DNA of 64,000 bases from Branchiostoma lanceolatum. Lineage: Eukaryota; Chordata; Leptocardii; Amphioxiformes; Branchiostomatidae. Both the position numbers and the translations under genes were made by a program. The notes beneath the pieces were generated by a model. It had not been told where the DNA came from and searched no databases. It was given only the letters and a program-made list of their open reading frames with translations. Position 1 is the stretch's first letter. Each line of letters opens with the position of its first letter. The stretch spans positions 30,885,925 through 30,949,924 of the forward strand of contig NC_089725.1 of the NCBI RefSeq assembly GCF_035083965.1, given 5' to 3'. This document shows positions 1 to 59,206 of this stretch, piece after piece.

Positions 1-44
1 ACTGTAGTACATGATTCCGAGCTGCAGCTGCCCCTCCACCCAGC
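1..44 (-). repeat. Partial second copy of SEL1L exon 12 donor end
   Basis: On the minus strand bases 44 to 1 encode [14 protein letters not shown], matching the end of exon 12 (198-240; [13 protein letters not shown]) with a few substitutions, and the copy again reaches the GT of a donor. It is cut by the window edge, so whether it is a lone fragment or part of another exon copy cannot be told. Confidence 0.75.
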
Positions 45-55
45 ACCGCTCGGCT

Positions 56-185
56 ATGTGCGTGTGTGTGTGCATGTGTGTGTGTATGTGTGCAAGTGTG
101 TGTGAACATGTGTGCATGCGTGTGTGTGCATGTGTGTGTGTGTGTGTGTGCATGTGCATGCATGTGTGTGTTATCGCGTGCATGC
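56..185. repeat. TG-rich microsatellite
   Basis: Imperfect TG/CATG repeat separating the two copies of the SEL1L exon 12 end, inside the SEL1L intron. Confidence 0.9.
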
Positions 186-197
186 ATATCTACTTAC

Positions 198-55740: not shown

Positions 55741-55749
55741 TCCCAGCCA

Positions 55750-55995
55750 AGGAACTGCAGATATGCTCCCAGCCGGTAGGTGGCGGTTTTGTCCCGTGCA
55801 CCCGTCATTATTTCCCCGAGTCTGTGAACTGCAGATATGCTTCCGGCCGGTAGGTGGCGGTGGCGGTTTCGTCCCGTGCACCTGTCATTATTTCCCCGAG
55901 TCAGTGAACTGCAGATATGCTTCCGGCCGGTAGGTGGCGGTGGCGTCCCGTGCACCTGTCATTATTTCCCCGAGTCTGTAAACTGCAGGTATGCT
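55750..55995 (-). repeat. Tandem copies of the last exon end of the small membrane protein
   Basis: About 80 bp units at three positions downstream of exon 3 repeat its final codons (CTGCAGTTTACAGACTCGGG), the stop and the following 3'UTR (GACAGGTGCACGGGACG). The upstream-most copy is the one in frame. Confidence 0.9.
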
Positions 55996-58900
55996 TCCGG
56001 CCGGTAGGTGATGACTAACAGCTCCATCGCCATGCGCGCGATGAACAGCACGAAGTTTAATCCTGAGAGGAAAGAGAACAACAAGAAAACATAAACGAAA
56101 TTCATAGACAAAAATCGATATAATTTTTCCATACATCTTAAAATTCATTAAACTTTACTTCAATGAACTCATGATTCACAAAACTTTGCCTGATAAAACC
56201 ACGAGTCACACGAATTCAATTTAGGTGGCTCATTCGCCGATTTCACACTTCCCATGATGCCCCATTGGGGCGTCGTAAACTCCGGCACTGCCCAATTTAC
56301 GGTAATTCTTCTTAGCGCGCGTGAACCAACAGAAAACCCAAGTAGGAGGGCGGTAAAGCTGCAGGAAGGTAACGTTACGTTTTTTGTGTTGATTCTCATC
56401 AAACCTGTCATAATTACATGTTTTATATACTGGGGAGGTAATACGGAACAATTTTTAAAGGTTTTACCAGTGTTTGTCTATAGAACTTAGAAGTTGAATT
56501 TGTATAATGTCACAGAGACTTTCTTTAAAACACTGAATAAACAGAATGCAGGAAAAACGTCTATACAGATATTTAACAATGAAGTATTACTTGCGACAAT
56601 AAAATCAATTCTTAGTCTTCAATTTTGATTTTATTTGAGTTGTTTACGAAAAGTTTGTGGAAAGTGAATTGTGGGTGATGTATGACACACCATACTCTTG
56701 CCAGCTTTGATTCAGATGTCCTGTCGGTGATGACAGAATCTGAAATAAACCAAGCAACTTTAAATAAATGCACACATCTATATTGAATTGACTCTGATGA
56801 TCATCTCTCAGATAGTAACAGTTACAGTTATTACAGTAACACTTACACAGTAATAGATACACTAGTTATCATTTCTCAGACAGTACTAGTTACAGTAGTT
56901 TAGAGAGCATAAACAATGTGTTTCATGGTTGTTTGAATAACACGTCCAGGAATTTCACACTCGTTAGCAAATTGTTTTCTTCAGATCAGAGTGTCACATG
57001 TTTTGACCGAAAAATGCTCTGTTCTTCATGATATATTACTATTTTGACAAGGCAGTTATGACTTTGGTACCGTGGTGATAATTTCTTCTTCCCTTTCGTA
57101 CTACGATCGAAACACACACCAACCAAGAAAGTTACACATAAAAGACGTGAAGTTAGCGGAGTATAAAAATATACAGAATTGTCAACTGATTAACAACAAC
57201 AACTGATTCAAAAGTAGTGTTTAGCACTAGGATTGATTTCCCTTTTCGTAGAATATTCAACTGCAATAACGAACGTTTCGGTGTATTTTTCTTGGTGATA
57301 ATATGCACGTACCGATTCGCTGCGGAGACAGGCCATCCCGCTTGAAGTTTGCGCGACTTTCGCGCGCTAAGAAGAATTACCGTAAATTGGGCAGTGCCGG
57401 AGTTTACGACGCCCCAATGGGGCATCATGGGAAGTGTGAAATCGGCGAATGGATCGCCGTCTAGTGGAAAGGGGGCCTGACCGCGTGACCTACTCTGCAA
57501 GCAGAGACTCGGCTCCGGCTGGTTTTTCACGTGTCTTTAAGCGTTTTAGTCTGGCTGTCCTGTTTTCTTTATGTCAACCGACAAAACGGCCAAATGGCCG
57601 GCGAACATAAAGAAAACGGGGCAACGTAGAAATCCCTACAAAAACGCATAAAGACATGTCAAAGAGCCCAATCTCTGCTTGGACAGTACGCGTGACCCAC
57701 CTAGAGAGACTACCGCTAACATGTGTTCCCCAGCCTCGGTGGCTCCGGCCTGGGTTGTGTACACGTAACCTAGCAACGCCGTGTAGAACGCCAGGATGTG
57801 GATCACCTGCCGAGCAAAAAGGGGAGGCTGCAGTCAGCTGAGACACGTGCAAACCCCTCAAACCAGAGTTGATTTTGTACACACTTTCAGCAACTAATTG
57901 CTGTTGGATCCCTCGAACAGAAGACATTTCTGGCACTAAATATATCGCAGAATTGGGGCAGACGGTGATAAATGTGCTAGTCTCCAAGCAGATACATCGG
58001 TTAGGCTTGTTTTATGGGTCATTTCTGGCCTGCGTGTCTACGTCCCACTCTGATAATGCACCTTTTCTTCCTGTTCCACCTCCCTGGCTGTCAGATTTAG
58101 GAGGAGGCGAAGAGTAAGAAATGTGCACGACTTCAGTAGACAGATCCACTAGATGGAGCTATTAAAACATGCGTACACATCAACACTGAGTCGGATCCTT
58201 ACATCTGCTTGGATATTATACATACATGGGGTGAATCAGCTGGCTTGAGAAGACATACGGCCATGACTACTTTTCTTGAATAGTCCCGAATCAGTTGGCA
58301 ACTAGCCCGACTCAACCCTTCTTTCTTCTTTCGTTTGAGGCAGCCGCCTTCATCGTGGTGAAGATTTTGCTACCTTTCTACTACTGGAAGTCTACTGCGC
58401 TTGGGAGTGAAGATGTGAAATGTAACAAACCAGGGGTTGGGAATGGGAAGGGTGGATTTAGATCTGTTGTTTAAAACTGTCAAGAGTTGGACTGAGGGCG
58501 ACCGAGGCTGGAAGGCTGTTCCAGTCCTCGGTCGTCCTGGGGAAGAAAGACTGTCTTCTGTACTCGGTTCTGGATGCAGGGACTCTGTAAGCTGCTGAGT
58601 GCAGATGTCTGGACGAGCGGGATGGTGCTGCAGGGGTGGGGGCAACTCTCGAGTTTATAACTACAAGGCTATTGTGATACTTATAAAAAGTGATGAGTCT
58701 AGCTCTTCTCCGCCTAGCATGCAGGGTGGGCCACTTTAGTTCATCAAGCATGTCCTGCACACTAGAGGTGCGTCTAAAGCGGTTTAACACCCATCGGGCA
58801 GCTCTACGCTCACCGCTCAACCCTCACCGTGTACTCTTCATAGATCCTAACGCAATCGCTGATCGTCAAGCAGACGTTGTTGTTGTGCTACCGTGTGCGA

Positions 58901-59206
58901 GTTTGCATATACGTCCCTACACTGTAAAGATGAGGTTCTGTGTGGTGACGCTAGATGGCGCTGATATGCGTACATGTACCTACCATCAATGTGAATATGA
59001 AGTTCTGCGTGGTGACGCTAGATGGCGCTGATATGCGTACATGTACCTACCATCAATGTGAATATGAAGTTCTGCGTGGTGACGCCAGGCTCCTGCGTGT
59101 GCAGGTAGACCACCACGTCGTAGATCGCGGCGCCCAGCAAGGCAAAGAACAAGACGTAAGACACCAGGATGAAGCTCTCCTTCTTAGACAAGCGCGTCTT
59201 GGCCAT
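55962..59206 (-). CDS. Small multi-span membrane protein, 120 aa, unrecognised
   Basis: Three exons in phase on the minus strand: 59051-59206, 57701-57806, 55962-56062 (TAA). The protein starts MAKTRLSKKESFILVSYVLF and shows three hydrophobic segments: FILVSYVLFFALLGAAIYDV, VIHILAFYTALLGYVY, and LNFVLFIARMAMELLVITY. It ends RPEAYLQFTDSGK. There is no cleavable signal peptide pattern and no cysteine motif. The donor for exon 2 is GTGGGT after CTAG, since the nearer GTAGTC would break phase with exon 3. The VSY...IYDVVV stretch loosely recalls the first helix of OSTC-type oligosaccharyltransferase subunits, but the rest does not match, so no name is given. The donor end of exon 1 and the stop-codon end of exon 3 are both tandemly repeated. 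Intron 2 contains a 1.2 kb inverted-repeat element. Confidence 0.75.
56229..57455. mobile_element. 1.2 kb element with near-perfect 95 bp inverted repeats
   Basis: CATTCGCCGATTTCACACTT..CCCCATTGGGGCGTCGTAAA..TTACGGTAATTCTTC at 56229-56328 returns inverted at 57358-57455. No transposase inside. It lies in intron 2 of the small membrane protein. Confidence 0.88.
58320..58820 (-). mobile_element. CR1/L2-like LINE ORF2 C-terminal fragment
   Basis: Minus frame 58820-58458 encodes [45 protein letters not shown] and [20 protein letters not shown], a continuous RT terminus, with a (GAA)n tail. It lies in intron 1 of the small membrane protein. Confidence 0.88.
58925..59062 (-). repeat. Tandem copies of small membrane protein exon 1 donor boundary
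   Basis: A 67 bp unit containing the exon end (CAGAACTTCATATTCACATT) and donor ATG|GTAGGT occurs at 59045 (functional) and 58978, with a third, partial unit near 58930. Confidence 0.9.

Follow-up and report, generated by a model that had tools for sequence, protein, structure and literature searches.

Why should the edges of exons be copied into the introns that flank them, and how would a transcript carrying several near-identical splice sites still be joined at the right one? A stretch of 64,000 nucleotides from the amphioxus Branchiostoma lanceolatum (RefSeq assembly GCF_035083965.1, contig NC_089725.1, positions 30,885,925 to 30,949,924 of the forward strand; hereafter the window, numbered from its first base) raises both questions. 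We modelled four genes in this window, SEL1L, PGBD5, ZFPL1 and a gene for a small membrane protein, and found local copies of 8 of their 53 splice sites when a lag scan was run at its two looser thresholds and of 7 of 53 at the strictest, with at least one such site in each gene. The copies carry AG or GT splice signals, and 22 of these decoys were located and scored.

Copied exon borders in four genes

Gene models were rebuilt from the sequence. All modelled junctions are GT-AG (27 of 27 donors, 26 of 26 acceptors), and the spliced frames are open. SEL1L (198..9535, reverse strand) has 12 exons within the window and runs on past base 1, and its product aligns with vertebrate SEL1L (E 9e-147). 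The 8-exon gene at 10309..16558 on the forward strand, with a Pfam DDE_Tnp_1_7 match (E 3e-53), we take to be PGBD5, following an initial annotation of this stretch. The 7-exon gene at 36048..41997, also on the forward strand, is presumably ZFPL1, a name that comes from the same annotation and from sequence motifs; its RING match is weak and lies below the Pfam cut-off. The small membrane-protein gene (55962..59206, reverse strand) has 3 exons encoding 120 amino acids, and its product had no match in the Pfam search.

Copies were detected by Tandem Repeats Finder (TRF) and/or local self-BLAST, plus the lag scan, and every one of them is a duplication beyond doubt. The initial annotation had listed eight copied exon edges in these genes, seven of them including the splice site itself. 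All eight were recovered, and the splice site does lie inside seven; the exception is exon 3 of the membrane-protein gene (55742..56010, reverse strand), where 74 bp repeats contain the stop codon and the start of the 3'UTR, without a splice site. A ninth border copy, absent from that list, is a decayed duplicate of the SEL1L exon 8 acceptor, which misses the strictest lag-scan threshold.

Five borders are tandem cases in which the repeated unit spans the exon-intron border. On the reverse strand, the SEL1L exon 9 donor array (2527..2853) holds the authentic donor at 2804/2805 and four decoys (2750, 2669, 2614, 2533), and the SEL1L exon 5 acceptor array (5822..6340) holds the authentic acceptor at 5843/5844 and seven decoys, with a degenerate extra copy reaching to about 6392. 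The PGBD5 exon 5 donor array (14147..14347, forward strand) repeats a 25 bp unit, so that the authentic donor at 14168/14169 is accompanied by seven decoys. The ZFPL1 exon 3 acceptor is present in two copies (38180..38444, forward strand), a decoy at 38210/38211 and the authentic site at 38344/38345, spaced by 134 bp. Finally, the donor array of membrane-protein exon 1 (58906..59088, reverse strand; 67 bp unit) contains the authentic donor at 59050/59051, an intact decoy at 58984 and a diverged third copy.

The remaining three cases are spaced, diverged duplications that fit the definition of a mirage minisatellite, a tandem repeat spanning an exon border, only loosely. The 3' end of SEL1L exon 12 (198-360) with its authentic donor (196..249, reverse strand; border 197/198) has a single copy at 1..54 on the same strand (54 bp, 88.9% identical by self-BLAST), cut by the window edge; the offset is 195 bp and a TG run lies between, giving a spaced duplication and no clean tandem array. 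This copy was also considered as an alternative exon, a candidate that was dropped, its far side lying beyond the window. The SEL1L exon 8 acceptor border (3593..3639, reverse strand; authentic junction 3599/3600) has its decayed copy, with CAG, at 4043..4089, 450 bp upstream in the intron (83%, E 3e-6 by self-BLAST). The authentic PGBD5 exon 8 acceptor border (16230..16345, forward strand; junction 16306/16307) is preceded by two diverged copies, one at 15944..16014 with AG before 15976 and one at 16033..16147 with AAG before 16111. Their BLAST offsets from the original are 331 bp (83%) and 199 bp (84%), and the two copies lie 135 bp apart (73%). The unit range of 25 to 136 bp given in the initial annotation therefore does not cover SEL1L exon 12 (offset 195 bp) and PGBD5 exon 8 (up to 331 bp), which are spaced and not tandem.

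Organization of the arrays

In the gene models the authentic border is always the exon-adjacent copy, that is, the 5'-most donor or the 3'-most acceptor, and the extra copies lie intronward. It is through this copy that the open frame passes. For PGBD5, ZFPL1 and the membrane protein the frame is the sole basis of this choice, and in SEL1L there is in addition the alignment with vertebrate SEL1L, which runs without insertion across exons 4|5 and 9|10. The position of the splice site within the repeated unit follows no rule, with no fixed distance from the unit edge.

Two of the SEL1L arrays have a higher-order structure. At exon 5 the unit is 61 bp (39 of intron and 22 of exon), and the acceptors read, from the exon outward, CAG, TAG, TAG, TAG, CAG, TAG, TAG, TAG; TRF reports a period of 245, equal to a four-unit block, and the array looks as if this block had been duplicated whole. 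At exon 9, units of 81 and 55 bp alternate, forming a 136 bp higher-order unit (TRF period 136). These block patterns suggest unequal exchange or conversion. Deviant copies lie at array edges, namely the degenerate extra SEL1L exon 5 copy, the diverged third copy of membrane-protein exon 1, and the last copy of PGBD5 exon 5, which has GTAAAA. At ZFPL1 exon 3, 131 bp were copied with 3 bp of filler and no microhomology at the edges, and the two copies differ at 3 of 131 bp; such clean ends are as end joining would leave.

Two further repeats lie in these genes. Directly after ZFPL1 exon 3, and so beside the exon 3 acceptor duplication, is a 150 bp intronic duplication (38567-38872, 82%). Intron 2 of the membrane-protein gene contains perfect inverted repeat arms of 91 bp (56231-56321 and 57361-57451), and the segment that they bound (56231-57451) is like a recent non-autonomous DNA transposon.

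Predicted consequences of decoy use

The initial annotation had also raised a splice-choice problem. We examined this for 22 decoys, which belong to six borders, and scored them on matrices derived from the window's remaining junctions; the diverged third copy of membrane-protein exon 1 and the SEL1L exon 8 copy stand outside the scored set. Thirteen decoys tie with the authentic site, nine are weaker and none is stronger, and each of the 22 is predicted to produce a premature stop if used. At SEL1L exon 12, the decoy would add 195 nt in frame, and translation would meet a stop no more than three codons from the real junction. On paper, then, the problem exists, with competitors of equal or lower score that would each truncate the protein.

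Repeat spacings point to how the problem may be avoided. Inside coding sequence, the 10 spacings listed from TRF or BLAST, for a leucine-rich repeat (LRR) frame and SEL1L exon 3, are all multiples of three, these being overlapping and non-independent rows; the BLAST offsets within the LRR frame are multiples of three in 33 of 33 instances. Among the border and stop-codon repeats, 9 of 13 spacings (61, 136, 55, 25, 134, 67, 196, 331, 74) are not multiples of three, near the two thirds expected without frame constraint. The border copies are therefore probably untranslated and removed with the intron.

The LRR frame is itself a feature of the window. It is an open frame of 1217 codons (49897-53547; LRR_8 E 2e-54) containing coding tandem arrays of 72, 117, 111, 294 and 189 bp by TRF, and it probably belongs to an LRR receptor-like gene whose repeats turn over fast.

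Frequency of duplications at borders and elsewhere

We then asked whether copies are placed preferentially at borders; the initial annotation had suggested a genome-wide process that either copies borders preferentially or tolerates copies there. The null model placed the ancestral unit at random within the gene spans, which is suitable because an array of n copies holds just one ancestral border. The TRF event list comprised every row with a period of at least 18 that lies within the spans of the four genes, an array with nested rows being counted once. Rows of shorter period and sequence beyond the spans, among it the single-exon LRR frame, were left out; from the BLAST rows, microsatellites were dropped and so, at first, were four weak rows (260~731, 37280~37448, 57490~57977, 41958~42322). 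The choice of events was ours and the P values depend on it, and stretches used as non-border may hide exon borders of genes outside the four modelled.

Under this null, a splice site is spanned by 5 of 10 TRF events, where 1.15 would be expected (P 0.002). Adding BLAST rows gives 8 of 20 with 2.27 expected (P 0.0006), and removing the weakest leaves 7 of 17 with 2.06 expected (P 0.0017); P values across these lists run from 0.0006 to 0.0023. Lag-scan events gave 7/9, 8/12 and 8/15 at three uniform thresholds, where 1.57, 1.86 and 2.09 were expected (P 6.5e-5, 7.5e-5 and 2.1e-4). We allowed border copies to be twice as detectable, because one copy is under constraint, and the same three comparisons then gave P 0.0026, 0.0030 and 0.010. 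Omitting SEL1L exon 12, situated at the margin of its span, gave P 0.0003-0.0010 (0.009-0.026 if detectability was doubled). With the four weak rows restored, 8 of 24 events fell on borders where 2.54 were expected (P 0.0018, rising to 0.052 when detectability was doubled). Furthermore, the 8 non-border events amount to 0.146 per kb, a rate that predicts 0.5-0.6 border events, or 1.0-1.2 with doubled detectability (P 0.0006-0.0018), and 7 were found. Taking ancestral units, the border excess is about three- to four-fold.

Two other nulls were not significant: whole present-day arrays placed at random (5 observed, 3.11 expected, P 0.14) and splice sites rotated over the duplicated bases (P 0.15-0.23). 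Both are conservative because decoy copies count as intron coverage. Preferential placement is thus seen in the event-level tests of this window, more weakly at doubled detectability (0.003 to 0.05), and not in the two conservative tests. We note that the window was picked after the pattern had been noticed, and all P values are therefore optimistic to some degree.

Comparison with published mirages

According to the initial annotation, such boundary-spanning repeats had been named mirage minisatellites at amphioxus Adh. This is correct, and the phenomenon, which extends to globins and PGBD5, is already known in print (PMC3087553, PMC3902484). "Mirages" were described in the globin genes of B. 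floridae, with Adh3 and other loci cited and with the proposal that they may be general in cephalochordates (PMC3087553); Adh and troponin C mirages are likewise cited in PMC3902484. The arrays in the window resemble those of Adh3, the globins BflGb6 and BflGb9 and troponin C in being tandem copies of a border, whether donor or acceptor, of which many carry splice signals, and also in having homogenised interior copies and deviant edge copies (PMC3087553). They differ in lying in SEL1L, ZFPL1 and the small membrane-protein gene, and SEL1L exons 12 and 8 and PGBD5 exon 8 are unlike the published cases in being old spaced copies and not arrays. For the local density of 8 of 53 splice sites in 64 kb we found no counterpart in the available portions of the mirage accounts. 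A literature search, with subscription journals mostly outside its coverage, found no genome-wide mirage count, and the available part of a huntingtin paper (PMC2206037) mentions tandem repeats, with border copies not found there.

PGBD5 allows the closest comparison, being the same gene with the same kind of feature in B. floridae, where exon 3 has boundary repeats of 60 bp and exon 4 / intron 4 has repeats of 108 bp, both confirmed by re-examined Sanger and new Illumina data (PMC3902484). In the window, by contrast, the exon 5 donor of PGBD5 has an array of eight 25 bp copies and exon 8 has spaced ones, and no array of 60 or 108 bp appears among the TRF rows for the gene. With 8 exons here and 7 in B. 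floridae the match of exon numbers is uncertain, and so is any equivalence of border between the 108 bp and 25 bp arrays. Subject to this uncertainty, the differing units suggest turnover between species or haplotypes.

Local duplications attributed to repair in primates are similarly short, sometimes include splice sites and have filler or microhomology at their edges (PMC2671141). Unlike the present survey, that study excluded tandem duplications, and partial exon/intron donors made up 4 of 824.

PGBD5 with introns is reported from cephalochordates and vertebrates only, and the lancelet gene is described as being without the vertebrate intron 1 (PMC3902484), so that intron 1 in the window (10618-11396) could be transposon-built or transposon-filled. 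Dispersed repeats make up 85% of this intron; one, of 450 bp and sharing 92% identity with 24925-25361, stops 10 bp short of the acceptor, and a second repeat begins 5 bp past the donor. A dispersed short element (CTGTATCTGTAT, TATAGCCGGTATAA, CTTTTGGCGTAACACACC) is present at 10624-10737, 12564-12586, 3116, 38044 and 49364-49542, and two of its copies start about 7 bp or less from the donors of PGBD5 exons 1 and 3.

Other features of the window

Open frames at 20780-21601 and 32457-33413, in opposite orientation, appear related by eye (MATRQGKKVKVRVRNLF and MATKPGKKVRFKVRNLF) and have no Pfam match; they may represent a gene duplicated in inverse orientation or else a repeated element. An intergenic inverted repeat lies at 19328-19458, its longest perfect arm (36 bp) starting at 19328 with its partner at 19423.

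Discussion

How, then, did the copies arise, and why do they persist? On balance we favour the reading that they are generic short duplications which fell at borders and are tolerated there since splicing takes the exon-proximal site, and we consider this reading, taken whole, moderately probable. What the window shows directly is the copies and where they lie, their effects on the frame, site scores no higher than the authentic ones and the block pattern. Mirage minisatellites would then be short duplications, 25 to about 150 bp long, that happen to span an exon border. The first copies may have come from error-prone repair or slippage, and some would later have been enlarged through unequal exchange or block duplication. 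Under exon definition the exon-proximal site should win on both sides, and under intron definition the far decoys should, because a shorter intron results. A spliceosome that picks the 5'-most donor and the 3'-most acceptor would be in line with exon definition; border copies would survive because this holds on both sides, leaving with the intron and probably neutral. The border excess would most likely be a mixture of short duplication that is frequent in general, of survival and of longer detectability, the survival component being that copies within coding exons would persist solely in multiples of three. Short duplications do occur elsewhere as well, both beyond the four genes and within the LRR coding frame.

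Several observations weigh against this reading. Splice choice in vivo and neutral tolerance are what we infer, correct splicing being deduced from the frame, and 4 of the 13 border and stop-codon spacings (81, 195, 135, 450) are multiples of three. The tests for a border excess disagree, falling into ranges of 6.5e-5 to 0.002, 0.003 to 0.05 and 0.14 to 0.23. Non-border duplications are few in the gene introns, which leaves room for a true mutational preference, and the ZFPL1 junction alone is clean enough to hint at the origin of a first copy.

The chief rival is that in this lineage short tandem duplications form preferentially at borders, for example after breaks where composition or nucleosomes change between exon and intron; the excess would then reflect production and not tolerance alone. 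The lag-scan counts and the rate-based estimate argue for such a hotspot, as does the excess in the TRF set, which consists mostly of copies more than 90% alike. Against it stand the two non-significant conservative nulls, the P of 0.052 reached with the weak rows and doubled detectability, the choice of the window after the pattern had been seen, and a splice site at no constant distance from the unit edge; we regard it as unlikely, if worth serious attention. Preferential copying and preferential tolerance are indistinguishable from the window data. The stronger proposal that border hotspots leave decoys at about one in seven splice sites, making a natural splice-choice experiment in which the exon-nearest site always wins and a continuing source of new introns, strikes us as rather improbable. 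Borders might instead show no preference, a minisatellite-rich genome hitting them by chance and the eye of the initial annotator being drawn to them. The conservative nulls and the weakest event-level variants (0.026-0.052) are consistent with this, as are duplications outside the four genes at 16723, 17742, 19769, 22869, 27097, 35531 and 63267 and in the LRR frame; since those two nulls are biased against an excess and the ancestral-unit tests find one, we hold an absence of preference to be doubtful, slightly more so than the preceding proposals.

Two further alternatives seem far less credible. Merging of two divergent haplotypes into false duplications could account for the 3 differences in 131 bp between the ZFPL1 copies, which might be allelic divergence, and the draft assembly of one globin mirage was apparently wrong (PMC3087553). 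The B. floridae PGBD5 repeats were upheld by two kinds of sequence data (PMC3902484), and for the multi-copy arrays a haplotype merge is excluded, since these number five and eight copies and contain unit-specific variants as well as blocks; as a general explanation, such an artefact is very improbable. Least probable of all is that the decoys are kept because transcripts with premature stops tune expression. The uniform prediction of premature stops and the 13 decoys scoring equal to the real site would suit regulated unproductive splicing, but a frame shift or intron sequence makes stops likely anyway, and copies decay, as seen in the third membrane-protein exon 1 copy and the SEL1L exon 8 copy. 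PGBD5 exon 8, moreover, is the last coding exon, so decoy stops there have no later coding-exon junction, and Adh3 and globin data suggest that splicing is undisturbed despite mirages (PMC3087553).

To the published accounts this window adds a local density, three further genes, and tested decoys that are equal or weaker in score and all predicted to truncate. The arrays bear on the origin of introns: mirages have been proposed as a route to intron gain, a used decoy being one step from a new intron or exon (PMC3087553). If the density of 8 in 53 splice sites held elsewhere, the genome would offer many natural pairs of near-identical splice sites competing within one transcript.

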